NCBI GenBank assembly: GCA_017938925.1
Contig: JAGBAO010000013.1
Coordinates: 440,660-504,659, forward strand
Length of the DNA stretch: 64,000 nucleotides
Origin: Bacteroidales bacterium
GTDB taxonomy: Bacteria; Bacteroidota; Bacteroidia; Bacteroidales; UBA932
Direction of reading: 5' to 3'
Shown: positions 5,041-64,000 of the stretch, piece after piece
How positions within the stretch are numbered: the stretch's first letter is position 1
Layout of the letters: each line of letters begins with the position of its first letter
Made by a program: the position numbers and the translations under genes
Notes under the pieces: generated by a model
What the model was told of the DNA's origin: nothing
Databases searched by the model: none
Seen by the model: the letters and a program-made list of their open reading frames with translations, nothing else

Positions 5041-6115
5041 AATCACTCACATTCTTTACTCCGACAAGTCCATAATATGATGCTACCACATCCCCTTTCA
5101 GACGTATCCTGCTGCCGAGCAGTCCCGGATTATCCACCAGATTGAGATTATCCCTGACGCTGCCGGTCGGCAGTTGTACAGCCAGGCAGGAAGAGCGTCT
5201 CGTCGTAACCTGCTTGGGTCCAAGAAGGATATTCGTCCTTGACGAGAACGGTTCATCGAAAGACGCCGATGACAACGACAGGTCGCCTCCGACAACATAG
5301 CCGCATATCCACACATCATTTTCTCCTACCGAAGCAATTGCCTGGGTTATTCCCATTGCGTTCTCCGGGGACTCACCCTTTTCCGTCCCCTCACCGATGA
5401 CATAGATATCTTCCACCCACACCCTGGATGTGTCCACTGACACTGAAATATCCTTCCGGCCTGACGTCTCTGACGATGAGCCTGCCTGACCCGACGAAAC
5501 CTTAACGCCAAGTGTCAGAATCTCTCCTGGCTCAAGCCATCTTGTCATCAGACTCTTGTCAGTGCCTCCTTCTGACATGACAAGAGAGACATTTCCGGGA
5601 AGGAAATACGCTATCCTCTTTTCAGAATAGGAATACGGCAGGCTGCCCTCCTTGGACTTCAGTACCAGAGATGCACCCGGACACGATGTCAGAAAACCGG
5701 AATCAACCTTAAGACGGATTCCGGAATTCATCTGTGAGCACATAAGCCTGACATGGGCGGAATTATCGGATTCCACTACCACGCACTGTTCATCACCGAA
5801 CTGCGGTGCTGAAAAGATCGGTTTGGAAAATTCAGCGGACAGAGCACGCACATTATAACTCCCGGCCTTGACCATCACGGCATCCGGAGCCTCCCCATAA
5901 GGGCCGTCGTATATGACTTTCCCGTCTGCATCTTCAACGTGCAGCAGAAAATCATTCGTGTCAGGAATTTCCATAGAAGCCCTGGTATCTTCAGTAAGGC
6001 TGCTGTCGAAAGATATCTTCAGCTCCCCTTCCCCGGCAGAACTCCCATCACCCAAGATCTCACACGCGACCAGAAACGGCCACGCAAGCAGAAACAAACT
6101 CAAAACAGGTTTCAT
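5027..6115 (-). CDS. DUF4493-type lipoprotein with C-terminal DUF6359-like domain
   Basis: Predicted lipoprotein of about 362 residues. Three in-frame ATGs lie close together (6130, 6121, 6115). The one at 6115 is preferred because GAGGAG lies 7 bases upstream and the product then begins MKPVLSLFLLAWPFLVAC, a compact lipoprotein signal. The N-terminal half (LKISFDSSLTEDTRA, NDFLLHVEDADG, SYNVRALS) matches the DUF4493 pattern of Bacteroidales surface proteins. The C-terminal part (ENAMGITQAIA, VWICGYVVGG, IRLKGDVVASYYGLVGVKN) resembles the OB-like DUF6359 domain. It is the first gene of an operon with the DUF4906 gene. Its exact role is unknown; a surface structural role is inferred. Confidence 0.75.
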   Translation of the reverse strand: MKPVLSLFLLAWPFLVACEILGDGSSAGEGELKISFDSSLTEDTRASMEIPDTNDFLLHVEDADGKVIYDGPYGEAPDAVMVKAGSYNVRALSAEFSKPIFSAPQFGDEQCVVVESDNSAHVRLMCSQMNSGIRLKVDSGFLTSCPGASLVLKSKEGSLPYSYSEKRIAYFLPGNVSLVMSEGGTDKSLMTRWLEPGEILTLGVKVSSGQAGSSSETSGRKDISVSVDTSRVWVEDIYVIGEGTEKGESPENAMGITQAIASVGENDVWICGYVVGGDLSLSSASFDEPFSSRTNILLGPKQVTTRRSSCLAVQLPTGSVRDNLNLVDNPGLLGSRIRLKGDVVASYYGLVGVKNVSDYVVE

Positions 6116-6159
6116 ATTCATTCTCCTCATTCGTTAATTGCCGCAACATCGCGGCGAGG

Positions 6160-6167
6160 CAAATGTA
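6160..6167 (-). promoter_or_regulatory. -7 element for the DUF4493/DUF4906 operon
   Basis: The minus strand reads TACATTTG at 6160-6167, a match to TAnnTTTG, about 45 bases before the chosen start. No good -33 TTTG lies at the usual distance, so the promoter may depend on an activator. The palindromic A/T block at 6185-6253 lies directly upstream. Confidence 0.5.
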
Positions 6168-6184
6168 TATGAGACCTGCAAGAC

Positions 6185-6253
6185 TTTGACTAAAAAAAAG
6201 AAAAAGTTGAAATTTCTTTTTTTTAGTGCAGATTTTACTGAATTTTAGTCAAA
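6185..6253. repeat. A/T-rich inverted repeats upstream of the DUF4493/DUF4906 operon
   Basis: ACTAAAAAAAAGAAA (6189-6203) and TTTCTTTTTTTTAGT (6213-6227) are 15-bp perfect inverted arms. A third copy of the foot sequence, TTTTAGTCAAA (6243-6253), is the exact reverse complement of TTTGACTAAAA (6185-6195). The block lies between the operon promoter and the 3' end of the helicase gene. It could be a bidirectional terminator or a protein-binding site. A related GACTAAAAAAAA motif occurs at 16865, upstream of the second fimbrillin-type locus. Confidence 0.6.
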
Positions 6254-6270
6254 GTTTTTCTGTTTTTTAA

Positions 6271-8760
6271 TCAGTTTTCCGGATTTTTTGCTATACGGAT
6301 TTTAGCGTATTTCAGTATGAGAATCTTCTCTCCATGATCATCAAAGGCAATCTTTGCCTTGAGGTCGGCAGGCGTGCCGGTTATCTCCAATATCCTACCG
6401 AAGCCGAAACGGTTATGCTCGATCCTCTGCCCGGCGCGGAGCTGAAGGATAGGAGTCGGTTCGAAATCCGCATCAGGCACACGCTGAGGCACGCTCTGAG
6501 GCCTTCTCACCGGCATCGGTTCAGTTCTCCTGGCAGCAGAAGGTTCCGGCCTCTGCATTTCACGTCGATATCCGGACGCAGACGTCCTTTCAGTCTTAAC
6601 AGCTCCGGAACGTCCGTAATCATTGCGTCCGAAACCTCCGAAGCGTGACTGCCCGCCGGAATTTCTTGTTCCCCAGCCGCCGAAAGACTCTTCACGGGCC
6701 GTCTCCATATCCTCCTTGGTCAGAGGATTGGCGATATATTTCGGATCCACTTCCCTGATGAATCTGGACGGGGAATTCGATTCGTGCTTTCCGTTGCGCA
6801 TTCTTGTCGATGCAAAGGAGAAATGCACGTGCTTCTTCGCCCGCGTCATCGCCACATAGAAGAGGCGACGTTCCTCTTCTATCTCCGACTCCGAGGCAAG
6901 GAAACCACCGGAAGGGAAAATGTTCTCCTCCATACCGGCCACGAATACATAAGGGAACTCAAGTCCTTTGGAAGAGTGTACAGTCATGAGAGTAACCTTG
7001 TTGGAGCCGTTCTCATCATCCTCAACATCCACAGCGCTGAGCAACGAGACATTCTCGAGAAAATCCCCCAACAGCACGACCGGGAGGTCAGCTGCAGTCA
7101 GTTCCACTCCCTCATCGACCATTCCCTCCGCCTGCATATCCTCGAAATATTCGTTCTGCTTTTCCTCTATATACGTCTTGACACTGTTCAGGAGTTCCTC
7201 GACATTGGCAAGACAGGACTGTCCTTCAATGCTGTTGTCACCCTTGTAGAACATCAGCAGCCCAGACTCCATGGCCAGGGCGGCAGCTACAGTATATGCA
7301 TCTTCCTTCTGTCCGCGAAGACAGAGCTTTCCCATCATCTCGCAGAATTCCCGGATCTTCTTGATAGCCGCAGCCTTGAGGCCGAACGTTTCGAGATCAT
7401 CGGCAAAGGCGGCCTTGAACAAAGAGGTCTTATGCTCTACGGCCGCAGCTGCAAGGGCAGCAAGTGAGGTGTCGCCGATACCACGAGCCGGCTTGTTGAC
7501 TACCCTCTTGAAGGACTCGTCGTCATTGGGATTCACCGCCAGCTTGAAATATGCCATCATATCCTTGACCTCGGCTCTTTCAAAGAACGAATTGCCGGAA
7601 TAGATCACATAAGGAATATTCCTTCTTCTGAGAGCCTCCTCAAGTGCACGGGACTGGGAATTTGTCCTATATAATATCGCAAAATCCTGATACTCAGCAT
7701 GATCGGACTGTATACGGGAGACAATGGACGATGCAATGAGAAGCGCCTCTTCCTGCTCGGTGTATGCCTGGATCAACCTGATCTTCTCTCCCTCCTCGCC
7801 CATGGAGTAGCACTCCTTCGGAATGCGGGCGGAGTTTCTGGCTATCACCGAGTTAGCTGCATCTACAATGACCTTTGTCGAACGGTAGTTCTGCTCCAGA
7901 CGGAAGATATGATGGTCCGGATAGTCCTTCTTGAAGTTCAGGATATTCTCGATCTTGGCTCCGCGGAATGCATAGATGGACTGGGAATCGTCACCGACCA
8001 CACAAAGGTTCTTATGGAACTGGCTCAGCTTCTTGAGAATCAGATACTGAGCGAAGTTGGTGTCCTGGTACTCGTCCACCATTATGTATCTGAAACGCCC
8101 GGCAATCGATTCAAGAGCAGCAGGATTATCCCTTAGCAAGATATTCATATTCAGGAGGATATCATCAAAGTCCATCACTCCGGCCTGCCTGCATTTCTGG
8201 GCATAGAGCTGATAGATGTCACATATCCTCGGCTTCTTCGCAGACGCATCGTTCTGAAGAGCCGTCGGATTCCTTCGATACGCCTCTGCCGTCACCAGGT
8301 TGTTCTTAGCCATCGATATGCGCGAAAGTACATCCTTCGGCTTATATATCTTTTCATCAAGCTGGAGGTCCTTCAGACATGACTTGATCGCACTGATGGA
8401 GTCACTTGTGTCATATATCGTAAAAGCCTGAGGATATCCCAGTGACTCAGAAAATTCCCTGAGGAACCTGATGAACACAGAGTGAAATGTGCCCATATAA
8501 AGCCTCCTTGCCCTCTTCTCCCCGACCATAAGGGCGATCCTCTCCTTCATTTCCGAGGCTGCCTTCTTGGTAAACGTCAATGCAAGTATGCTTGCCGGAT
8601 CGCAATCCTTTTCCGAAAGGATATAGGCAATCCTGCTGGTAAGCACCCTTGTCTTTCCCGATCCCGCACCCGCAACAATGAGCACCGGTCCGTCCACACA
8701 GCTGACAGCAGCCTTCTGCTCGCTGTTCAGCCCTTCTAAGATTCTGTTGCTGTTCTCCAT
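6271..8760 (-). CDS. UvrD/PcrA-like superfamily 1A DNA helicase
   Basis: ATP-dependent 3'-5' DNA helicase for excision repair and for clearing replication conflicts. The frame is open from 8877, but homologues start at MENSNRILEGLN, so the ATG at 8758-8760 is chosen (829 residues; GGTGAAG precedes it). SF1 motifs in order: AGAGSGKT (Walker A), LTFTKKAA (Ia), MVDEYQDT (Walker B), VGDDSQSIYAFRGA (III), LEQNYRS (IV), LMTVHSSKGLEFPYVF (V) and FYVAMTRAKK (VI). A Gly/Arg/Ser-rich linker leads to the PcrA-type C-terminal domain (GQRIEHNRFGFGRIL), which binds RNA polymerase in other species. It is divergent from nqrA. Whether it is the orthologue of pcrA or uvrD cannot be settled by eye. Confidence 0.93.
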   Translation of the reverse strand: MENSNRILEGLNSEQKAAVSCVDGPVLIVAGAGSGKTRVLTSRIAYILSEKDCDPASILALTFTKKAASEMKERIALMVGEKRARRLYMGTFHSVFIRFLREFSESLGYPQAFTIYDTSDSISAIKSCLKDLQLDEKIYKPKDVLSRISMAKNNLVTAEAYRRNPTALQNDASAKKPRICDIYQLYAQKCRQAGVMDFDDILLNMNILLRDNPAALESIAGRFRYIMVDEYQDTNFAQYLILKKLSQFHKNLCVVGDDSQSIYAFRGAKIENILNFKKDYPDHHIFRLEQNYRSTKVIVDAANSVIARNSARIPKECYSMGEEGEKIRLIQAYTEQEEALLIASSIVSRIQSDHAEYQDFAILYRTNSQSRALEEALRRRNIPYVIYSGNSFFERAEVKDMMAYFKLAVNPNDDESFKRVVNKPARGIGDTSLAALAAAAVEHKTSLFKAAFADDLETFGLKAAAIKKIREFCEMMGKLCLRGQKEDAYTVAAALAMESGLLMFYKGDNSIEGQSCLANVEELLNSVKTYIEEKQNEYFEDMQAEGMVDEGVELTAADLPVVLLGDFLENVSLLSAVDVEDDENGSNKVTLMTVHSSKGLEFPYVFVAGMEENIFPSGGFLASESEIEEERRLFYVAMTRAKKHVHFSFASTRMRNGKHESNSPSRFIREVDPKYIANPLTKEDMETAREESFGGWGTRNSGGQSRFGGFGRNDYGRSGAVKTERTSASGYRREMQRPEPSAARRTEPMPVRRPQSVPQRVPDADFEPTPILQLRAGQRIEHNRFGFGRILEITGTPADLKAKIAFDDHGEKILILKYAKIRIAKNPEN

Positions 8761-8943
8761 ATCTTCACCAATGTTCCAAAATTCAATGCCCCAGGAACCA
8801 TTCGCATGAATGGCGGGGCACAAAAATAGACAAAACGAGGGAATTACCGAGAAGATTTCTGAAAAAGATTTCAACACTTCCGCGAGGGTGATACCTTATT
8901 ATAAAAAAGGCGTCTTTTACTTCGTAAATAGGGAAAAATTGTC

Positions 8944-8951
8944 TAACTTCG
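8944..8951 (+). promoter_or_regulatory. -7 element of the nqr operon
   Basis: TAACTTCG at 8944-8951 differs by one base from TAnnTTTG and lies 40 bases before the nqrA ATG. Transcription would start near 8956. The upstream region is AT-rich (8896-8940) but has no clear -33 TTTG. The divergent helicase gene begins at 8760, so this short gap must hold both promoters. Confidence 0.4.
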
Positions 8952-8991
8952 CGGGCGCATTTTGAAAATTATACTCAAAACGGTTTATATA

Positions 8992-10347
8992 ATGTCAAAC
9001 AACATCTATTTGAAAAAGGGTCTCGACCTTCCGATCAATGGAACGGCGGCCCAGAACACCAAGAAGGTGATCGTTCCTGACGTTGTGGCCGTGAAGCCGA
9101 CCGACTTCAGAAGCCTCGTTCCGAAGCTTCTCGTCAGGGAAGGCGACAAGGTCCTCGCAGGTACTCCTGTCTTGGCAGACAAGATGTCTCAGAACATCCT
9201 CTTCGCGTCTCCGGTAAGCGGAACTGTAGCAGAGGTTGTAAGAGGCGAAAAGAGGAAGTTGCTTGAAGTCCGTATCAAGGCTGATGCTGAGCAGGAGTAT
9301 GTAGACTTCGGCGTCAGAAAGGTAGCAGACATGACTGCTGAGCAGATCAAGAAAGCCCTTCTGGCAGCAGGTCTATGGCCGGCTCTCACTCAGAGACCAT
9401 ACGGCATCATAGCAAACCCTGAGGTCAAGCCGAAGGCCATCTTCGTTTCTGCATTCTCTACAGCTCCTCTGGCTGCAAGTCCTGAGTATGCCCTCCGAGA
9501 AGACCTCGAGCACATCCAGACAGCGATCAACGCTCTCGGCAAGCTCACAGACGGCGGCGTGCACTTCTCGCTCAACTCTGCTAACTATGCAGGAACTCCG
9601 TTCCACAAGATCGAGAACGTGATCCAGCACACTTTCACAGGAAAGCACCCTGCCGGCAATGTCGGAGTTCAGATCCACCACATCAGCCCGATCCGCAAGG
9701 GAGAGACAGTATGGACAGTGTCGCTTCTGATGCTCGCTGCCATCGGCAAGCTCTTCAACACTGGAAAGTACGATGTGAGAAGAAAGATCGCAGTGACCGG
9801 TCCTAAGGCCATCAACCCTGCATATGTGGAGGGTTATCCTGGCATCGCCATCAAGGATGTAGCCGAGTTCTACAACGCTCAGGAGAACCTCCGTTTCATC
9901 AGCGGAGACGTCCTCACAGGAACAAACGTAGGTGCAGAGGGTTACCTCGGATTCTTCGACAACCAGATCTCGATCCTCGAGGAAGGAGACAAGTATGAGC
10001 TTCTCGGCTGGGCAAAGCCTGTAAGATGCAGCCAGTTCAGTGCGTCACGCACATACTTCTCATGGCTCACTCCTAAGAAGAAGTATGACATGGACACCAA
10101 CCTCCACGGAGGTCCGCGTGCATTCGTGGTGAACGACACCTACAGCAAGGTTCTCCCTATGGATCTCTTCCCTGTACATCTCCTCAAGGCTTGTCTTGCA
10201 AACGACATCGACAAGATGGAGAAGTTCGGAATCTATGAGGTTCTCGAGGAAGACTTCGCTCTCTGCGAATACGTCGATCCGTCAAAGATCTACATCCAGC
10301 AGATCATCACGGACGGTATCGCTCTCATGTTAAAGGAAATGTGCTAA
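8992..10347 (+). CDS. nqrA: Na+-translocating NADH:quinone reductase subunit A
   Basis: Cytoplasmic-face subunit of the six-subunit sodium pump that transfers electrons from NADH to quinone. The frame has a TTG start at 8962, but the conserved N-terminus is MSNNIYLKKGLDLPI, so the ATG at 8992 is used (451 residues). Typical features are the lipoyl/biotinyl-like N-terminal stretch (VREGDKVLAGTPVLADK, ILFASPVSGTVAEVVRGEKR) and the conserved VNDTYSKVLPMDLFP near the C-terminus. It is the first gene of nqrABCDEF, and the next gene starts 12 bases after its stop. Length agrees with the family. Confidence 0.97.
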   Translation: MSNNIYLKKGLDLPINGTAAQNTKKVIVPDVVAVKPTDFRSLVPKLLVREGDKVLAGTPVLADKMSQNILFASPVSGTVAEVVRGEKRKLLEVRIKADAEQEYVDFGVRKVADMTAEQIKKALLAAGLWPALTQRPYGIIANPEVKPKAIFVSAFSTAPLAASPEYALREDLEHIQTAINALGKLTDGGVHFSLNSANYAGTPFHKIENVIQHTFTGKHPAGNVGVQIHHISPIRKGETVWTVSLLMLAAIGKLFNTGKYDVRRKIAVTGPKAINPAYVEGYPGIAIKDVAEFYNAQENLRFISGDVLTGTNVGAEGYLGFFDNQISILEEGDKYELLGWAKPVRCSQFSASRTYFSWLTPKKKYDMDTNLHGGPRAFVVNDTYSKVLPMDLFPVHLLKACLANDIDKMEKFGIYEVLEEDFALCEYVDPSKIYIQQIITDGIALMLKEMC

Positions 10348-56639: not shown

Positions 56640-57812
56640 CTATTTCAACAATTTCACCACCTCGTCCACCGTCAGATCCACCACCTCGACCGAACCGATC
56701 GCCTTAGGCAGCACGAAATGGACCTTTCCTCCTTCCGCCTTCTTGTCCTTCCTCATCACCTGAGCCATCTCCTTGATGGAATACGGGCTCTCGGACGGCA
56801 ATCCGCATGCAGCAAGATCCGCAACCAGTTTCTCAGCCAGGCCGTCCTCCGGCTTCCTGAACATTCCTGCGATACGATTCACGAGTCCTTGTCCGGACTT
56901 TTCCAGTTCATCTGCCAGTCGAGCAGCCATAACCATCCCGACAGCCACTGCTTCTCCGTGAGTCATTCCGGCATCCTTTCCATTAAGATTCAGCACCGGC
57001 ATCCGCTCCTCCTTCTGCGACAAGGTTTCAATCGCATGAGCGAAAGTGTGCCCGAGATTCAGCACCCTGCGCTCCCCTTTCTCAAACTGGTCACGGGACA
57101 CGACGCCCGCCTTTACGGCAGCGGCCGCAGTTATCAGCTCTTTCAGTTCCACTTCCTTCCGCTCCAAGGTCGCAGTTCTGTCCTGCGAATATGCCTTGAG
57201 ATATGCCACAGCCTTGTCATACATCCCCCCATCACTGATAATGAAGGTCTTGAGCATCTCGGCTGCGCCCGAAAGGAATTCTCTGGCAGGCAGACTTTCA
57301 AGCACCTGAGGGCACAGATATGTGAACTCCGGCTGACGGATCACACCGAGAATATTCTTATATTTTTCGAAATTGACCCCGGTCTTGCCACCGATTGCGG
57401 CATCCACCTGAGCCAGAAGAGTCGTAGGAATATAGGCAAAACGCACTCCGCGCTTGTATATGGTGGCAGCGAAACCGGACATATCAGTGGTTATGCCACC
57501 GCCGACAGCAAGCACAAGAGCATCCCGGTCTGCACCCTTGTCAAGAAGCCATGAACAGATATCCATCACTGATTCCATGGTCTTGACCGTCTCAGACACA
57601 TCGACAGCCTTGACCGGAACCGCCTTGATGATGAACTCCTGAACAAGGTCATACACAGCCCTGGACTTCGTGACAACCTGCCTGTCCACCACCACAAAAA
57701 CATGACTATACGGCTTCAGGCAATCCCCCAGACCGGAATCCAGATTCAGTCCGTCACCGACCACCACCCGGCTGACCTCCTTTCCATCGTGATATATATC
57801 AATCTGTTCCAT
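56640..57812 (-). CDS. aroB: 3-dehydroquinate synthase
   Basis: Second step of the shikimate pathway, NAD- and metal-dependent. The frame is open far upstream (to 58130), but that part runs antisense through tRNA-Leu; the true start is the ATG at 57810-57812 (MEQIDIYHDG, with GGGAGC upstream) or the ATG at 57824. About 390 residues. Family marks: VLAVGGGITTDMSGFAATIYKRG (as VGGGITTDMSGF), IPTTLLAQVDAAIGGKTGVNF, FLSGAAEMLKTFI and NLGHTFAHAIETL with metal-binding His residues. Heads the aro cluster. Confidence 0.96.
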   Translation of the reverse strand: MEQIDIYHDGKEVSRVVVGDGLNLDSGLGDCLKPYSHVFVVVDRQVVTKSRAVYDLVQEFIIKAVPVKAVDVSETVKTMESVMDICSWLLDKGADRDALVLAVGGGITTDMSGFAATIYKRGVRFAYIPTTLLAQVDAAIGGKTGVNFEKYKNILGVIRQPEFTYLCPQVLESLPAREFLSGAAEMLKTFIISDGGMYDKAVAYLKAYSQDRTATLERKEVELKELITAAAAVKAGVVSRDQFEKGERRVLNLGHTFAHAIETLSQKEERMPVLNLNGKDAGMTHGEAVAVGMVMAARLADELEKSGQGLVNRIAGMFRKPEDGLAEKLVADLAACGLPSESPYSIKEMAQVMRKDKKAEGGKVHFVLPKAIGSVEVVDLTVDEVVKLLK

Positions 57813-57832
57813 AAGCTCCCACATTAAGCCTA

Positions 57833-57840
57833 CAAATATA
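57833..57840 (-). promoter_or_regulatory. -7 element of the aroB operon
   Basis: The minus strand reads TATATTTG (57833-57840), an exact TAnnTTTG match 20 bases before the ATG at 57812. It excludes the long upstream frame from the aroB coding region. Confidence 0.6.
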
Positions 57841-57870
57841 CACATTTGTCCCCACGCCCACGATAAATAT

Positions 57871-57901
57871 TTTGCATTTTCCGAAAAATCAGATACCTTT
57901 G
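57871..57901 (+). promoter_or_regulatory. Promoter of tRNA-Leu
   Basis: TTTG (57871-57874), spacer of 19, TACCTTTG (57894-57901): a textbook Bacteroidota promoter. Transcription would start near 57907, leaving a processed leader of about 87 bases before the tRNA. Confidence 0.8.
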
Positions 57902-57993
57902 CATTCCTCAACCGGAAGGCCCAGCCTCTCCGGCCAGGTTCCAGCCCAGACGCAATCCTCCCGAAGGAAAGCCCACAGGCCCGAACCACACCA

Positions 57994-58075
57994 GCCCGGA
58001 TGGCGGAATCGGTAGACGCGCTGGTCTCAAACACCAGTGGAGCAATCCGTGCCGGTTCGATCCCGGCTCCGGGTA
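57994..58075 (+). tRNA. tRNA-Leu (anticodon CAA)
   Basis: 82 bases, class II with a long variable arm. Acceptor GCCCGGA (57994-58000) pairs with TCCGGGT (58068-58074), the first pair being G-T; discriminator A at 58075. The anticodon stem-loop is CTGGT-CTCAAAC-ACCAG, giving anticodon CAA, which reads UUG. T arm GCCGG-TTCGATC-CCGGC. CCA is not encoded (next bases CAT). Confidence 0.95.
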
Positions 58076-58080
58076 CATAA

Positions 58081-58113
58081 AACCCTCGTAGAACGCACTC
58101 TACGAGGGTTTTT
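58081..58113 (+). terminator. Terminator of tRNA-Leu
   Basis: AACCCTCGTAGA (58081-58092), loop ACGCAC, TCTACGAGGGTT (58099-58110), with T-run to 58113. 12-bp perfect stem. Confidence 0.92.
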
Positions 58114-58121
58114 CTGTTTTC

Positions 58122-58143
58122 TTTCCCCACATTTTCCCCACAT
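58122..58143. repeat. Tandem TTTCCCCACAT at the island edge
   Basis: TTTCCCCACAT occurs twice back to back (58122-58132 and 58133-58143). It lies between the tRNA-Leu terminator and the first base of the AT-rich block, where an attachment-site remnant would be expected. No integrase gene is in the window. Confidence 0.5.
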
Positions 58144-58188
58144 GAAGAAAATATTGAATTTTAGTGACTTTAGGGACATTTTTTTAGT

Positions 58189-59226
58189 TTATCGGCCTAA
58201 AATCAACACTTCACACCGTTCTGCATTATGTCGATTCAAAGCAAAACTATGTTTTCCGAGGCTATAAACTTGCGTATTTGGTTTATAGCGCGCAATTATA
58301 TTTCTGATTGTCTCTACATCAGGATATCCTTCCGTAGTATACGATAATGCAATTATAGAATCTTGGTGAATTCGTATCAAAGATTCAAGTTCATCTAAAT
58401 ATGTCCCTCTCTGTTCAAATTCTCTATTGCAACCAATATTTATCTCCCTATTGACTTTATTAAAGTTGATAGCAGGAATAATATCTCCATAATGCATCAA
58501 TCCTTCCAAGAAATGATAACGATTATGATAGGTTATTGTTCCCTTATTAGCCTTAGAAAAATATGGCGTATCAATATACACCAAATCGGCCCTCAGTTGG
58601 CAATTCAATGCACTTTGATTCGAGATGGTATAATTACAATCCTCATCCGGTTGAAACTCATTCAACTCACGTGTAAACTTAACAAACAAATCCTTAAAAG
58701 ACTGTTCCCAAGTCACTTTATTACCGAACTTTGCACTCGTAAAGTTTGTTCTGAGATTTAGATTGTTACGATGAAATAAATTAAACGGTCTTTTTATCAT
58801 GCAACTTTGGAACAAAACATAATATGCACATGCTTGCTGATTCAAAGGAAGGTTCTGAATATTCTGCACCGCAATATCAATAATCTCATTCTCCGCAGCT
58901 GTATAATAAATATTTTGATAATTCTCTGATATAATATAGCGATAATCTCTCCCTGGAATCGGTTCCAATAGCCTTACGGCCTCTTCTTCTGTTAATGTAT
59001 TCTTATGACAATTTATGAGGGCATGGGCTATTGTACAATTAAAAAGAAGAATATCATTATACATCACATTTTTCCTTTTATGTGCCATAAAATATGACAC
59101 AATCCCTGTTCCCCCAAATAAATCCAAGAAGGAATTGAATACAACTCCTTCTTGTTGCAATATCGCCCAGATCTTTTCTACTAATTTCCTTTTTGATCCG
59201 TAATATCTAGTTACAGGTAATTTCAT
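58189..59226 (-). CDS. D12-class DNA adenine (N6) methyltransferase
   Basis: 345 residues, last gene of the AT-rich operon. The N-terminus RYYGSKRKLVEKI is the D12/Dam-type opening. The SAM-binding motif is FLDLFGGTGIVSYF (DLFGGTG at 35-41). The catalytic motif is IDTPY (218-222), a variant of DPPY with Thr in the second position. NVMYNDIL (53-60) follows motif I as expected, and FNLFHRNNLNLRTNF is the family's substrate loop. The size fits an alpha-class N6-adenine methyltransferase. The first ATG overlaps the stop of the nuclease-like gene by 4 bases. It probably marks host DNA against the system's own nuclease; recognition sequence unknown. Confidence 0.88.
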   Translation of the reverse strand: MKLPVTRYYGSKRKLVEKIWAILQQEGVVFNSFLDLFGGTGIVSYFMAHKRKNVMYNDILLFNCTIAHALINCHKNTLTEEEAVRLLEPIPGRDYRYIISENYQNIYYTAAENEIIDIAVQNIQNLPLNQQACAYYVLFQSCMIKRPFNLFHRNNLNLRTNFTSAKFGNKVTWEQSFKDLFVKFTRELNEFQPDEDCNYTISNQSALNCQLRADLVYIDTPYFSKANKGTITYHNRYHFLEGLMHYGDIIPAINFNKVNREINIGCNREFEQRGTYLDELESLIRIHQDSIIALSYTTEGYPDVETIRNIIARYKPNTQVYSLGKHSFALNRHNAERCEVLILGR

Positions 59227-60884
59227 TTAACAATAGACTTGACTTTTCTTTTTAATTTTCCATATTCGGGTTCTACGATACACCTTAAAAACAATTTATC
59301 AAATTGGGCTATAGGTATTAGAAAATCATATACTTTATGAGCTAAACCATCTCTAGCTGATGTCGACCCTTTTTTCTTATCAATAAAAAATTTATATGTA
59401 GATTCAACTGAGCCATCACAATATGGCGCAACTAATGTATATCTAAAGACAATATTTGGATTATTCGTTTGAAAATATGTATGAAATTTTACAATCTTCT
59501 GAATAGTCTCTTCAATATTGAATTTCGTCAATCTGGTTTTTTCTTCAAAGAAACAAATCTCATTAGAAGAAGACAAAACCATAGAATCTATTTCTATAAA
59601 AGACTCGCTTTGTCCCTTTTTTCTCAAGCTAAAATTATGCAAGGATCGACACCCTAGTGATTTAACTACATCTTCAAAACGATCCTCAAAATATTTACTT
59701 ATAAAATAGTAGCTACAATCTGGATGTAATGCCAATACAGATTTGCCTTTATTATTAACAAAAGCGTCCTTGTTACCATTTTTTGTATAATGCTTTCCAT
59801 CAGGTAGTTCATTCACCCAATGCAAAAGATTATAATCATTCCCTATTTTATCCAAAGAGTATACTCCTAATAAGGTATGTTCGCATTCTTTATTAGGGCT
59901 AACATAAAAATGGAATCTCTCCAACTCCTTAATCTGCCTAATCTCATAAACATTCTCAAAGAACTTTGAATATTGCCTTTTAATACTAGGACCATCAGAT
60001 GAAATAAATAAATTACATTTCAAATGAGAAAGAAGACGACTAAAATCAACCTTTTTAGTCGCTTCCCTGAAATTTGCCAGCAATGGAGAATTAACACTAA
60101 TACATGGTTTCGTCTCACTATATTGCAAGGATATTGTTTCCCACATAAATAGTGCATTTTCTTTCTTATTTACATATGGAGATATATCATCAATTGTTAT
60201 TAACTTCTCACCATGAGCTAAAGCAACTAACTTATCGTTTTCGTAATATGCATAAGTTGTAAGCACATCTTGATATTGACACGCACTTTTCCAGTCATCA
60301 GATAAATATAACGATTCCGGGTCAATTGGAGCTTTAGTCAAAGACGACAAATCAACCCAGGAGATAGGCAAGATTAACGAATCTGATGGTGAAGAGTCAA
60401 CAATACGAAGTGACATAGAATAATTTTGATCCAGAACAAAAGTGCATAAACGGCTCTCATAATGTCTAACACTCTCATCTATTAATGAAAATAATTTTGA
60501 CACAGGAGCATACGACTTTAGCATTCCCATCAATGTTTTATTATTCTTTCCTCCTATTACATTTTGAATAACTAAATTATGGTCTTTATAAAGAAGTTTT
60601 ATATCGGATTCTTTTGATGGAGTTAAGCCAGATATAAAATCCTTTTCGATGTAACTAATGATGTCCGAGCACAGTTCATCCTCGTCCAAATCCGCTGGAT
60701 AATTTTCTTCATAGATAACATCAACTTTAAACACATTAGGAACTAACTCAGAAAAAGTCAAATCCGAGTCATCTTGATGCTTAATACCTGCAATCTCTAT
60801 TATAAGATGAATTATCGGTGCCAATAGGCCATCAAGATCTAACTTATAATAGTACTGTTGTAACTTGCTTACATTCTCAAACAT
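59223..60884 (-). CDS. Large protein with C-terminal PD-(D/E)XK nuclease-like site
   Basis: 553 residues, no family recognised. Residues about 395-500 look like a restriction-type nuclease core: helix ISKYFEDRFEDVVKSLG with acidic residues, then EID (431-433), a strand, and FFEEKT with E447-x-K449, followed by a helix that ends at FHTYF and the strand FRYTLVAPY. This is the alpha-beta-beta-beta-alpha-beta order of PD-(D/E)XK enzymes. The N-terminal 390 residues are of unknown fold, with many aromatic and acidic residues. They could bind DNA or the ATPase. The start is 2 bases downstream of the ATPase stop. AT-rich codon use matches the operon, not the host. Confidence 0.7.
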   Translation of the reverse strand: MFENVSKLQQYYYKLDLDGLLAPIIHLIIEIAGIKHQDDSDLTFSELVPNVFKVDVIYEENYPADLDEDELCSDIISYIEKDFISGLTPSKESDIKLLYKDHNLVIQNVIGGKNNKTLMGMLKSYAPVSKLFSLIDESVRHYESRLCTFVLDQNYSMSLRIVDSSPSDSLILPISWVDLSSLTKAPIDPESLYLSDDWKSACQYQDVLTTYAYYENDKLVALAHGEKLITIDDISPYVNKKENALFMWETISLQYSETKPCISVNSPLLANFREATKKVDFSRLLSHLKCNLFISSDGPSIKRQYSKFFENVYEIRQIKELERFHFYVSPNKECEHTLLGVYSLDKIGNDYNLLHWVNELPDGKHYTKNGNKDAFVNNKGKSVLALHPDCSYYFISKYFEDRFEDVVKSLGCRSLHNFSLRKKGQSESFIEIDSMVLSSSNEICFFEEKTRLTKFNIEETIQKIVKFHTYFQTNNPNIVFRYTLVAPYCDGSVESTYKFFIDKKKGSTSARDGLAHKVYDFLIPIAQFDKLFLRCIVEPEYGKLKRKVKSIVK

Positions 60885-60886
60885 GG

Positions 60887-62410
60887 CTATTCAAAAACTG
60901 CTTGCGTTAAATCATCTATTATTTTTGAAATCGAGGTTTGCTGATCAAAGTTCCATTTAAACATATTTAGCAATATAAATAGCTTCTTAGGATCATATTC
61001 TATAATCTTAATATCTACATCTGGATAATTTAACTCAGCATATGAAAGTTCCATATTAGGGGTCGCAAAGATTACAAATTTCTCACAGTTCTTCTCATCA
61101 ATAAAAGTTCCTATCCTATCTGCGACTTTACTCTTGTCATTAAACAAAAAAAAGTAGGCCTTACTAGATGTCGTATCTATAAATGCCTGATAATCTCTAC
61201 GCAGCAAACTTTTCTTTGTATCAAACCCTTTTGCGACCAAATAATACTCGAGAGGATCAAAAAATACACGACTTAAATTATCAAAGCCGCCTTCTAATAG
61301 AAGTTTCTGCTCTGTTTCATCATATAATGATTTCAAGGTCACATTTGTATCTAATAAACTACAACTATCAAACGGCAATCTCTTCTGTTTGAACAACAAA
61401 GTTGATATTTCTTGTAATAAGGCTCGATTGCTTTCAATCACCTTTCTCTTTCTCTGTAGTTTAGAAACGTAATCATCAATTGTATTTGTAACATCAATCT
61501 CATTCAGTTCTGCAATCAGCTTTACAAGTTCAGTAATCTCTTCTTTTGATGTCAAAGGCTGCAAAACCACAATATCCGGCTCCACTCTGCTATAAAATGG
61601 AGGACTCAAAAGATTAATTTCCACACCTTTAGTTATGCAACTGATTAAATAGTGGCCACGTATCTTACTAAACAAATCGATCAATTCACGGTATGAAGTG
61701 AAAAAATGAGCCATACGTTTAGGAGACTTATCACGAATTTTCTCCAACTCATCTATAGCGAATAACACATATATCCTCGCCGACGCCAAGATATTTAGGA
61801 ACAAGACCAAAACTTCTCTCCTATTAAAATCTGTAAGTTGTTGCAAACCATATTTAGAAAAAACACCTTTTGAGTACAAACGTCCTGTTCCCATATATAG
61901 CAACTCACGCAAAGCCTCAGCATCTATCGAAGCATCAAACAATTTCGCAGTATATTCTTTTATAGCTGCAAAATCATCATCGAAATTAGAGACTAATGCC
62001 TTGTAATCATAGTCATCAGACTCCTTAAGACGAGTAATCTCTTTCTCTATATCATCCAATAATGCAAATTGTATATGCTGCATCAGAAACAAGCATAAAT
62101 CCGTTTGATCTGGGTTTGCTCTACAATACAACATTTTAACATTAAGTTCTGGATGGAGATCAAAATAAAGTTTGAGATATTTGATAATATTAGTTTTACC
62201 ATCTCCATAATTCGCCTGGATAATAGAGTTTACCATCCTATCACCATCTATCATTGATATTTTAGCAGCAATAGCAGACTTCGCACTTTCTTGGCCTATA
62301 ATTACATATGGCAAGTCCGGAACCTTACCTTCACTCCAATCTTTTGCAATTGTAGCCAACTTGCTTGGGTCTATTGTAAGACGATCCCACAGATTTGGTA
62401 ACCTTATCAT
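60887..62410 (-). CDS. AAA+/ORC-like P-loop ATPase
   Basis: 507 residues. Walker A is ANYGDGKT at 66-73 (a Gly-poor variant of GxxGxGKT). Walker B is YVLFAIDELEKI, with Asp-Glu at 220-221. A sensor 1-like strand (HYLISCITKG, about 253-262) and LQPLTSKEEITELVKLI (about 283-299) resemble the ORC/Cdc6 and BREX-associated ATPase (BrxC/BrxD) groups. The C-terminal 200 residues are probably a lid plus winged helix or a partner-binding region; I recognise no motif there. It overlaps the upstream gene by 4 bases (ATGA). Likely role: ATP-driven DNA or partner remodelling for the nuclease. Confidence 0.75.
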   Translation of the reverse strand: MIRLPNLWDRLTIDPSKLATIAKDWSEGKVPDLPYVIIGQESAKSAIAAKISMIDGDRMVNSIIQANYGDGKTNIIKYLKLYFDLHPELNVKMLYCRANPDQTDLCLFLMQHIQFALLDDIEKEITRLKESDDYDYKALVSNFDDDFAAIKEYTAKLFDASIDAEALRELLYMGTGRLYSKGVFSKYGLQQLTDFNRREVLVLFLNILASARIYVLFAIDELEKIRDKSPKRMAHFFTSYRELIDLFSKIRGHYLISCITKGVEINLLSPPFYSRVEPDIVVLQPLTSKEEITELVKLIAELNEIDVTNTIDDYVSKLQRKRKVIESNRALLQEISTLLFKQKRLPFDSCSLLDTNVTLKSLYDETEQKLLLEGGFDNLSRVFFDPLEYYLVAKGFDTKKSLLRRDYQAFIDTTSSKAYFFLFNDKSKVADRIGTFIDEKNCEKFVIFATPNMELSYAELNYPDVDIKIIEYDPKKLFILLNMFKWNFDQQTSISKIIDDLTQAVFE

Positions 62411-63486
62411 AACTTTATTATTTTAATTTTAAGTACTGGGGTGTTTCTTATATAAAAGCGTTTTCGTTGATCAATCGTGGATACAATATTTATGAAAAAT
62501 ATTGAGAGTCGCATTCTTTCCTCTTCATAAAACCAAGATAAAAAGGTATTGAAGGACTTGTAACTCATTTTCATATAGGCGCAGATATCATACAAATTAA
62601 CATAATCATTCAAATCTACCTGTTTTTTTAGGATTGCATTATATGCCTTTAGAAACAGCTTCTTTTTTGTCTGCAACTTACCCTTTTGAACTATCTCATT
62701 TTTAAACTGACTAATATTACAAATAATATCGGAATATATTGCATTAAACTGGTCATTCTCTTTTATACAAGTTAATAGAAGTGATGACAAACCATTACTA
62801 CTAGTTAATGCCTTCAAATCCTCAATCCACCCTTTACGAACAACATAATAATTGGTATGACTACTATGTGTATAGTCAAACTTAAAATTTGGATAGTATC
62901 TGGCCACAAAGTCAAATACTAATGATTCTTCATCCAACGAATAGCGCCTTGCATATTTACATAACATGCATTGAGACAAGAAGAAATGAATATCATACTC
63001 TAATATTTGCTTCAAATATAATCTTCTGTCGGCATTATTGATTACAGATGATACTCTACACTTTTGCAATTTGATAATATCCCATCCTAAAATTTTCCAA
63101 TCTTTATCTACAAAATGTAGTTTATCAATAGCCAAGTTGACATAGTACGATGATGCTTTATATGTAGAATAAATCTGTTTCTCTATTTCAGTCTCTCTCT
63201 GTTTTGTGAGAGTTTGTTTAAGCATAGAGACTCTCAACGTTTTATTATACGCAGAAAAGTAACCATAAACAGAATCGACAGCTAATTTTGAAGGAACGCC
63301 ATCGGAATTCTTAGGATAATTACGGTGCAGGTAATTCAATAAAAAGAAATAAAACTCTACATTCAAATCTTCCTTGCAATATGTAACACAAGAAGTTTTC
63401 ACAAGAAATCGACAAAATAATTTCACCATCCACAACGGACGATGAAACGGACGATGAAGACTACTTATGATTCTAGGTGCAAGCAT
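62407..63486 (-). CDS. Unknown protein, first gene of the AT-rich operon, possible C-terminal winged helix
   Basis: 359 residues from the ATG at 63484-63486, 19 bases after a TAATTTTG -7 element. A later Met (63429) is possible. Predicted mostly helical, rich in Lys, Tyr, Phe and Ser. Near the C-terminus, VNLYDICAYMKMSYKSFNTF (about 296-315), followed by a helix and a strand pair ending FYIRN..LKIKIIKL, has the spacing of a winged helix-turn-helix. No catalytic motif is visible. Cysteines occur in an odd cluster (LSQCMLCKYARRY). It could be a DNA-recognition or regulatory subunit. No database family is recognised. Confidence 0.6.
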   Translation of the reverse strand: MLAPRIISSLHRPFHRPLWMVKLFCRFLVKTSCVTYCKEDLNVEFYFFLLNYLHRNYPKNSDGVPSKLAVDSVYGYFSAYNKTLRVSMLKQTLTKQRETEIEKQIYSTYKASSYYVNLAIDKLHFVDKDWKILGWDIIKLQKCRVSSVINNADRRLYLKQILEYDIHFFLSQCMLCKYARRYSLDEESLVFDFVARYYPNFKFDYTHSSHTNYYVVRKGWIEDLKALTSSNGLSSLLLTCIKENDQFNAIYSDIICNISQFKNEIVQKGKLQTKKKLFLKAYNAILKKQVDLNDYVNLYDICAYMKMSYKSFNTFLSWFYEEERMRLSIFFINIVSTIDQRKRFYIRNTPVLKIKIIKL

Positions 63487-63505
63487 TTTTAAAAGTACTA
63501 ACTTG

Positions 63506-63513
63506 CAAAATTA
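63506..63513 (-). promoter_or_regulatory. -7 element of the AT-rich four-gene operon
   Basis: The minus strand reads TAATTTTG, matching TAnnTTTG, 19 bases before the first ATG. No convincing -33 element lies at the standard distance. The whole operon seems to depend on this one site, since the internal gaps are 2 bases or negative. Confidence 0.5.
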
Positions 63514-63601
63514 AGGAAAAGTTTTCAGATAACCGAACAATGCTAACGTACATACTTCTGAACTTATATATGATAACTATTATCCATATTAAAAAGATTA
63601 C

Positions 63602-63609
63602 TAACTTTG
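63602..63609 (+). promoter_or_regulatory. -7 element of the candidate structured RNA
   Basis: TAACTTTG, an exact TAnnTTTG match. The region upstream (63541-63601) is AT-rich but has no clear -33 TTTG. Transcription would start near 63613, just before the first hairpin of the candidate RNA. Confidence 0.5.
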
Positions 63610-63611
63610 CA

Positions 63612-63821
63612 TAGTGATTGGAGATATCTGGTCACGAATTTGATAATATTAATTAGCGTTTGCTATTTATTCGGAATACTCTGAAAACTTGGCCGTTAAC
63701 AGAATTCCTATATCCGGATAAGTTCAGTGAACGTCTGCGCTATAGCGTGGATGGAACTTATCCCATAGGAAAGGCCAGGCCAAGTGCCTAGAGTATGGAT
63801 TTGTGAAGTCCATGCTTTTTT
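63612..63821 (+). ncRNA. Candidate rod-like structured RNA with intrinsic terminator
   Basis: About 210 bases. 5' hairpin at 63614-63635. Then nested perfect stems: ATACTCT (63676-63682) with AGAGTAT (63790-63796); CTTGGCC (63688-63694) with GGCCAAG (63778-63784); TTCCTAT (63705-63711) with ATAGGAA (63765-63771); GGATAAGTTC (63716-63725) with GAACTTATCC (63754-63763). Together they form one long rod with a central bubble. A terminator hairpin (ATGGATTT-gtg-AAGTCCAT, 63795-63813) and TTTTTT (63816-63821) end it. No coding frame fits. The shape recalls 6S RNA, but it could also be a leader or regulator of the methyltransferase gene that follows. Identity unknown. Confidence 0.55.
63795..63821 (+). 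terminator. Terminator of the candidate RNA
   Basis: ATGGATTT (63795-63802) pairs with AAGTCCAT (63806-63813), one G-T pair, 3-base loop, then GC and TTTTTT (63816-63821). It lies 57 bases before the methyltransferase ATG, so it either ends an independent RNA or attenuates the downstream gene. Confidence 0.75.
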
Positions 63822-63878
63822 AATGCACTTATCTGGTCTTTCATCCGAAGGGATAGCCTACGCTGCAAATAGCGCAGG

Positions 63879-64000
63879 ATGAACCACCAGATCAAGTCGA
63901 AGGAGAGGGTGGCGGCTCACGGTGAGGTGTTTACTTCAGAGCGTGAGGTGAATGCTATGCTCGACCTTGTGAAGCAGGAGACGGAGAGGATCGATTCCCG
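63879..64000 (+). CDS. N-terminus of an Eco57I/N6-type DNA methyltransferase (partial)
   Basis: Only 40 codons are in the window, too short for an automatic frame list. Starts at the ATG at 63879 with CAGG 3 bases before it. The peptide begins MNHQIKSKERVAAHGEVFTS, then EREVNAMLDLVKQETERIDS. The HGEVFT..x..V..MLDLV pattern is the N-terminal region just before the SAM motif of Eco57I-like and type I/IIG restriction-modification methyltransferases. The next residues should read FLEPACG or similar. Base composition is back to that of the host. It suggests that restriction-modification genes continue to the right of the window. Confidence 0.7.
   Translation, partial: MNHQIKSKERVAAHGEVFTSEREVNAMLDLVKQETERIDS

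Follow-up and report, generated by a model that had tools for sequence, protein, structure and literature searches.

Near the right end of the 64,000-nucleotide stretch of Bacteroidales DNA analysed here (contig JAGBAO010000013.1; hereafter the window), four leftward genes at positions 58189–63486 form an operon which we read, with a confidence slightly better than even, as a mobile, multi-subunit, nucleoside triphosphate (NTP)-dependent restriction-modification (R-M) cassette, with a logic like that of LlaI, BsuMI and LlaJI and an ATPase that is not recognisably McrB-like. What argues for this reading is the R-M kinship of the relatives of its methyltransferase (P0004), the overlaps linking the genes, the Walker motifs together with a weak BrxC/BrxD match in the second protein (P0002), a PD-(D/E)XK-like spacing in the third (P0003), the position beside a tRNA gene and another R-M operon, and the precedent of LlaJI-type systems. 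In the mechanism that we propose, P0004 would methylate adenine within a specific site of the host DNA, as its family suggests, and DNA recognition probably falls to the first protein (P0001) or to the N-terminal part of P0003. P0002, as an oligomeric ATPase, would gather on unmethylated invading DNA or travel along it, and would license its cutting by P0003. The central claim, that the ATPase and the nuclease would act together, is a proposal that we consider plausible and partly supported.

Organization of the Operon

The first-pass annotation, made by a model from the letters and a list of open reading frames (ORFs), had placed four leftward, tightly joined genes at 58189–63486, and we reproduced their exact ends and spacings. 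All four lie on the minus strand: gene 1 (62407–63486) comes first and encodes P0001, an uncharacterized protein of 359 residues; gene 2 (60887–62410) encodes P0002, 507 residues; gene 3 (59223–60884) encodes P0003, 553 residues; and gene 4 (58189–59226) encodes P0004, 345 residues. Genes 1 and 2 overlap by 4 bases, as do genes 3 and 4, and 2 bases separate gene 2 from gene 3. The earlier estimate of about one third G+C against near one half also agreed with measurement, 0.329 (32.9%) in 58189–63486 versus 0.504 (50.4%) in window positions 1–57990, and across 200 first-order Markov resamples of the block the longest open frame was 164 codons.

About 20 bases upstream of gene 1 sits a Bacteroidota-like −7 promoter element, TAATTTTG (63506–63513, minus strand, found by pattern only), so labelled from what we take to be the Bacteroidota −7 consensus; a −33 TTG was absent upstream of it at the spacing tried. 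Sigma-70-type matches in 57900–64000 were at chance level (28 versus 27.9 expected), and by eye a Shine-Dalgarno-like stretch is missing before each of the four genes. One promoter for all four genes is plausible. A Bacteroidota origin of the cassette would fit, if the consensus is as we assume, because Shine-Dalgarno-like stretches are absent and TAATTTTG stands before gene 1.

The Methyltransferase and Its Relatives

On its family matches, P0004 is a D12-class N6-adenine DNA methyltransferase, which upholds the original call: it exceeds the Pfam gathering score for PF02086 (expect value (E) 5.6e-14, 52.9 bits, cut-off 22) and carries both types of motif, FxGxG-type (DLFGGTG at 35–41) and DPPY-type (DTPY at 219–222). 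It also matches PHROG 27806 (E 2e-29) and 11 PADLOC models, ten of them MTase_II (PDLC03261 at 1.6e-43, covering model positions 307–626 of 643) and one PD-Lambda-5_B (1.5e-4). In an alignment of ten sequences, motif IV reads DTPY in P0004 and DPPY in the nine relatives, while KRP(F/Y)NLFHR and FGN...TW are common to P0004, L034, L027 and L028, the other six differing there.

The genome counts given here and below refer to samples, not to whole taxonomic groups. P0004 was matched in 22 of 395 class genomes, its own counted. Sixteen neighbourhoods of relatives were fetched, namely 15 out of 59 matching plasmid records and the one phage, and in 10 of them an endonuclease annotated as AlwI-, DpnII-, type IIS- or otherwise type II adjoins the relative or lies one small gene off. 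The methyltransferase is double-length in five of the seven plasmid or phage relatives fetched first and single in two, and many relatives are fused or tandem pairs. These neighbourhoods suggest that the relatives of P0004 are R-M methyltransferases, of the kind accompanying AlwI-/DpnII-type endonucleases.

The closest relative found, L034, has 37–39% identity with P0004. At L034 636–4548 (plus strand) a GHKL-type ATPase (HATPase_c_3, 8.7e-23) and an AAA_15/AAA_21 ATPase come after the methyltransferase, which makes an unfamiliar methyltransferase-plus-ATPase set. The L034 gene begins 624 bases inside the contig end, where a long leftover frame on the same strand is absent; the rest of that genome was not searched for genes 1–3. 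Two Rhizobium plasmids (L027 7905–13135 and L112 5917–10314) place a P0004-like methyltransferase by a beta-RFAP-synthase-family protein and a non-canonical purine NTP pyrophosphatase; this set too is unfamiliar, and perhaps serves base modification or a nucleotide-based defence.

The ATPase-Like, Nuclease-Like and First Proteins

P0002 is predicted to be a P-loop ATPase, possibly of the ORC/Cdc6 AAA+ type, and judging by its motifs would bind ATP. Of the Walker A/B ATPase announced by the first-pass annotation, both motifs are indeed present (ANYGDGKT at 66–73 and IYVLFAIDE at 213–221); the Walker A pattern is weak by itself, since 22 of 2000 shuffles of P0002 also give it, and the family match, to PF10923 BrxC_BrxD across the Walker A region (Pfam; E 0.017, 14.5 bits versus a cut-off of 22.2), is sub-threshold. 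A match to an McrB-type family was absent at E ≤ 1 in Pfam, a comparison from which R1.LlaJI itself was left out.

P0003 carries a PD-(D/E)XK-like motif, IEIDSMVLSSSNEICFFEEK, at 430–449 (EID...EEK), from which a putative nuclease activity is suggested. The pattern is weak by itself (20 of 2000 shuffles also give it), and family matches were absent in Pfam, PADLOC, NCBIfam and PHROG, restriction-enzyme families included. The nuclease-like site described earlier as EID...ExK therefore stands as to its spacing, and neither family searches nor the fold models discussed below confirmed it. For P0001, searches of Pfam, PADLOC and NCBIfam yielded nothing at E ≤ 1, and PHROG yielded two matches, at E 0.07–0.08. 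When P0002, P0003 and P0004 were searched against PDB sequences, no match below E 0.3 emerged.

Genomic Setting of the Insert

The AT-rich insert is bordered on the left by tRNA-Leu(CAA) (57994–58076, plus strand; ARAGORN, and Rfam RF00005 at 5.5e-10) and its hairpin, which an aroB-like gene, named by eye, precedes; on the side left of the junction, a match to at least part of 56700–58180 is present in 90 of 101 genus genomes, with the own genome counted. It is possible that the insert comes from contamination or misassembly; its left junction falls directly after the tRNA and hairpin. The tRNA-Leu region was fetched in 15 relatives, three with an identical tRNA and twelve with one 77–88% alike, in which the site may differ, and none of the 15 shares the insert, save a 22-base stretch in L094, which has the identical tRNA. 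This stretch (window 58122–58143, L094 1531–1552), 22 identical bases with the repeated CCCCACAT directly behind tRNA-Leu, is a candidate attachment (att) site. A search of the genome for the final 24 bases of tRNA-Leu, allowing up to 2 mismatches, returned a single occurrence, so that a second att copy was not found.

On the right the insert is adjoined by a second, rightward R-M operon, of which the start of a DNA methyltransferase gene (63879–63998, plus strand, in the remaining 63879–64000) is present; the operon is truncated, and nothing is readable farther rightward, because the window ends at the end of the contig (C16, 504659 bases). A relative, L067, has the whole gene: at 5356–10312 (minus strand) it holds a split type IIG-like operon made of a small MmeI-type methyltransferase (PF20473 MmeI_Mtase, 6.7e-07), an Eco57I-type methyltransferase (PF07669 Eco57I, 3.7e-38) and a 935-residue protein with a T5orf172 domain. 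In the genome G1182 the start of this neighbouring operon is 97% identical from window position 63602 on, and on its other side, in place of the four genes, stands a divergent pair matching AriA (5.1e-38) and AriB (1.8e-15) of PARIS. The 20-kb stretch of G1182 lacks a tRNA, so the neighbour is the same and the same chromosomal site is not established. At L066 1553–3683 (plus strand) the PARIS-like AriA/AriB pair points away from the R-M operon, the one which in the window borders the four-gene set. We regard this position, between tRNA-Leu and an R-M neighbour that elsewhere adjoins PARIS, as the strongest independent evidence for counting the four genes as defence cargo.

Distribution of Genes 1–3

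P0002 was found in one of 395 phylum genomes and one of 80 order genomes, each time in its own genome only; P0003 in one of 299 family genomes, again its own; and P0001 in its own among 79 family genomes and in none of the 78 others. P0003 also gave matches in three of 237 order genomes, its own included, the other two being weak and judged due to chance: one (E 0.002) has stops inside, and the other (E 0.008, or 7e-4 by tblastn against the fetched loci alone) falls in a protein that by eye resembles a methyl-accepting chemotaxis protein. P0002 had no match in IMG/VR, plasmids or phages; P0003 had none in IMG/VR, in phages (E ≤ 0.01) or in plasmids (1e-5), two plasmid RecQ matches at E 9 (limit 10) being taken as chance; and P0001 had none in IMG/VR, nor in plasmids and phages at E ≤ 0.01.

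The sole match in the search of genome contigs with P0002 was L002, a 3476-base contig of a water-deer caecum genome labelled Bacilli, which holds the end of gene 2 and genes 3 and 4. It differs from the window at 3 of 3476 bases, each difference altering an amino acid, and the rest of the insert was not found in its genome. L002 is too similar for a test of conservation, and this 3.5-kb contig may be misbinned. When P0001–P0003 were compared by blastp with the ORFs of 18 loci holding P0004 relatives, nothing better than E 0.06 emerged. By these sequence searches genes 1–3 are orphans in the samples covered, in which the four-gene set did not recur in diverged genomes. The first-pass annotation had proposed to look for a co-conserved locus and had named the absence of conserved co-occurrence as evidence against its idea; outside the near-identical L002 we found no credible relative of genes 1–3, which comes close to that outcome.

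Comparison with Known Systems and Alternative Readings

The closest precedents are R-M systems with several restriction subunits, among them LlaI, whose M.LlaI we take to be a FokI-like adenine methyltransferase. The LlaJI system comprises two cytosine methyltransferases for an asymmetric site, an McrB-like putative GTPase, R1.LlaJI, which binds the site, and a PD...D/ExK subunit; restriction in vivo requires both restriction subunits, and LlaI and BsuMI have three restriction ORFs where LlaJI has two (PMC1459862). The purified LlaJI subunits displayed neither GTPase nor cleavage activity, so that the LlaJI mechanism is itself partly inferred (PMC1459862). The present set resembles LlaI, BsuMI and LlaJI in its clustered and similarly oriented methyltransferase gene, here overlapping, and in its clustered putative NTPase subunit, and, if the motif of P0003 marks a nuclease, would resemble LlaJI in a PD...D/ExK subunit; unlike LlaJI, it has one D12 methyltransferase, and P0002 lacks an McrB match (PMC1459862). 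Because no McrB-type subunit was found, we do not file the set as a member of this group. It shares the D12 methyltransferase family with AlwI/DpnII-type R-M; unlike P0003, which matches no restriction-enzyme family, the endonucleases of that type are annotated as single proteins, and they are not known to need ATP.

In PADLOC (2023) genes 1–3 were unmatched at E ≤ 1, in NCBIfam they gave nothing below E 0.06, and no named PADLOC system had two or more matching genes, P0004 alone being matched. The earlier statement that the set matches no named system thus holds for these libraries; as to the kind of system it was too strong, since it overlooked the LlaI/BsuMI/LlaJI-type layout of methyltransferase, NTPase and PD-(D/E)XK subunit (PMC1459862). 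That PglZ and a helicase are missing was correct for the four proteins in Pfam, PADLOC and NCBIfam. AriA and AriB models, for their part, were unmatched by the four proteins, although PARIS flanks the same neighbouring operon in G1182. It is plausible that the set is an orphan R-M-like cassette, a variant within a known kind and not a new category. The idea of an undescribed anti-phage system, put forward with the first annotation, keeps the D12 methyltransferase, the Walker protein and the defence-island position on its side, its nuclease fold, any role of P0001 and co-conservation staying hypothetical.

Several observations weigh against the reading of the operon as an NTP-dependent R-M cassette. 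Single-sequence AlphaFold2 gave no usable fold for P0003, with a mean predicted local distance difference test (pLDDT) score of 35 over the whole protein and 49 over residues 385–553. Its best Foldseek match, from this low-confidence model, was TDP2, which is not PD-(D/E)XK (E 0.02, template modelling (TM) score about 0.3 or less); the best 50 of 941 matches include RecE, HincII, SwaI and cap-snatching endonucleases, presumably of the PD-(D/E)XK fold, none of them significant, and we did not use them as support. The BrxC_BrxD match of P0002 hardly beats the implausible Snapin_Pallidin (E 0.02) in the same Pfam output. A lone methyltransferase is odd for an asymmetric site, given the fused and tandem pairs among its relatives. 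Finally, tblastn of genes 1–3 against 141 fetched loci found a credible relative only in the own locus and its near-copy, the leftovers being the two chance matches of P0003 described above and, in a separate run on nine plasmid and other loci added later, a match at E 0.095.

A bolder version of the same reading would make genes 1–3 a restriction machine of a new family, in which an ORC/Cdc6-type AAA+ ATPase that is not a helicase and not an McrB-type motor gates a very divergent PD-(D/E)XK nuclease, with a single AlwI/DpnII-type D12 methyltransferase marking self and an entirely new recognition subunit; we find it doubtful. It is unlikely that the operon is a composite, with a solitary D12 methyltransferase behind three genes of an unrelated accessory module, for instance one for abortive infection or DNA processing that includes an ATPase and a nuclease. 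P0004 relatives do occur without relatives of genes 1–3 beside them (blastp, 18 loci; tblastn, 141 loci), but genes 3 and 4 share a 4-base overlap, all four genes run in one direction, and L002 keeps the end of gene 2 together with genes 3 and 4, though it is nearly identical.

The four genes might also work in the manner of bacteriophage exclusion (BREX), the ATPase and methyltransferase sensing and marking DNA and the phage being stopped by replication arrest and not by cleavage, so that P0003 would not be the main effector. BrxC/BrxD is the sole biologically sensible family trace in P0002 (E 0.017), and BrxC and BrxD are classed as ORC/Cdc6 AAA+ ATPases, while BREX and the DUF499-centred BREX-related (Hma) systems combine an AAA+ ATPase with an N6-methyltransferase (PMC12839542). 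Yet PglZ, BrxX/PglX, BrxL and helicase matches are absent in the four genes, as is DUF499, leaving only the sub-threshold match in P0002, with the DNA past the contig end unread; the methyltransferase here is D12, and P0002 has 507 residues versus the 1200–1300 given for BrxC in PMC12839542. We consider this reading quite improbable. That genes of the set encode a type IV, modification-dependent enzyme like McrBC, the methyltransferase being a bystander, is very improbable: an NTPase with a PD-(D/E)XK protein is the McrBC layout (PMC1459862), but McrB and McrC families are absent among Pfam, PADLOC and NCBIfam matches at E ≤ 1 and a co-transcribed methyltransferase is foreign to type IV logic.

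A Structured Leader RNA Beside the Cassette

Outside the four-gene set, at 63642–63822 (plus strand), alignment and covariation point to a structured leader RNA of about 180 nucleotides belonging to the neighbouring R-M operon. Read from the alignment, its end is formed by a hairpin and a T run, some 57 bases ahead of the methyltransferase gene; a terminator scan listed no plus-strand terminator there. Nineteen copies were aligned and fitted to a hand-drawn structure, in which 93.8% of 738 cells pair and 18 of 40 pairs show changes on both sides, a number reached by 2 of 500 shuffles. The covariation score is 0.388 versus 0.189 for shuffled alignments and at most 0.100 with partners slid, while the number of further pair types, 44, is unexceptional (reached by 84 of 500 shuffles). 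One helix swaps letters between subgroups and stays complementary over at least 5 bases in 16 of the 19 copies and over 4 in three, as the best run searched without a shuffle control. Unconstrained RNAalifold retains the central hairpin and pairs the 5' arm with columns 73–92, excluding the hand-drawn helix 5; this partly exclusive alternative may reflect an artefact or a switch. At the leader, gathering score was reached by no Rfam 15 family: MIR814 (E 0.05) and sR30 (E 0.5, other strand), both below gathering score, each overlap one copy and look like chance, and DUF805 RNA (E 0.011) falls outside a copy.

Twenty-six copies of at least 110 bits had readable DNA downstream, two contig-end copies and one unfetched copy being excluded. 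A methyltransferase gene or its start follows 21 of them, 13 of the MmeI/Eco57I type and 8 of the EcoRI type, as classed by Pfam for representatives and by the sequence start for others, a tally favoured by the first DNA query, which held the methyltransferase start; in L077 just a 77-codon piece of the gene is open. Among nine fetched copies added by the covariance model alone, six lead a methyltransferase. In both cases tested the EcoRI-type methyltransferase is followed by a GmrSD_N/HNH endonuclease, namely L078 1078–3209 (PADLOC REase_II, 2e-131) and L075 10208–12459, under the same leader RNA; this EcoRI-type methyltransferase also occurs in L079. The remaining five strong copies precede a DUF4249 gene, an AraC-type regulator and, in three cases, no named family or gene, and one weaker copy, L131 (75 bits), stands before a third methyltransferase class, N6_N4_Mtase (2.4e-30), unrelated to the other two. 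At E ≤ 0.01 the covariance model has matches in 83 of 159 family genomes, own included, with up to 16 per genome in other genera. Either the leader family is not confined to R-M or some weak matches are false, because the 19 weaker matches inspected, without a control genome set, mostly precede varied other genes. No description of this RNA was found in the literature, judged by titles and abstract starts, and it may be a more novel item than the four-gene set.

Significance

With three of its four proteins outside any family, the operon illustrates that defence-like cargo can escape profile libraries, and further cassettes of this sort can be sought at the tRNA-Leu site and on the flank of the neighbouring R-M operon. 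If it does restrict phages, the set would represent a type of R-M whose motor may be a BREX-like ATPase, linking classical R-M and BREX.

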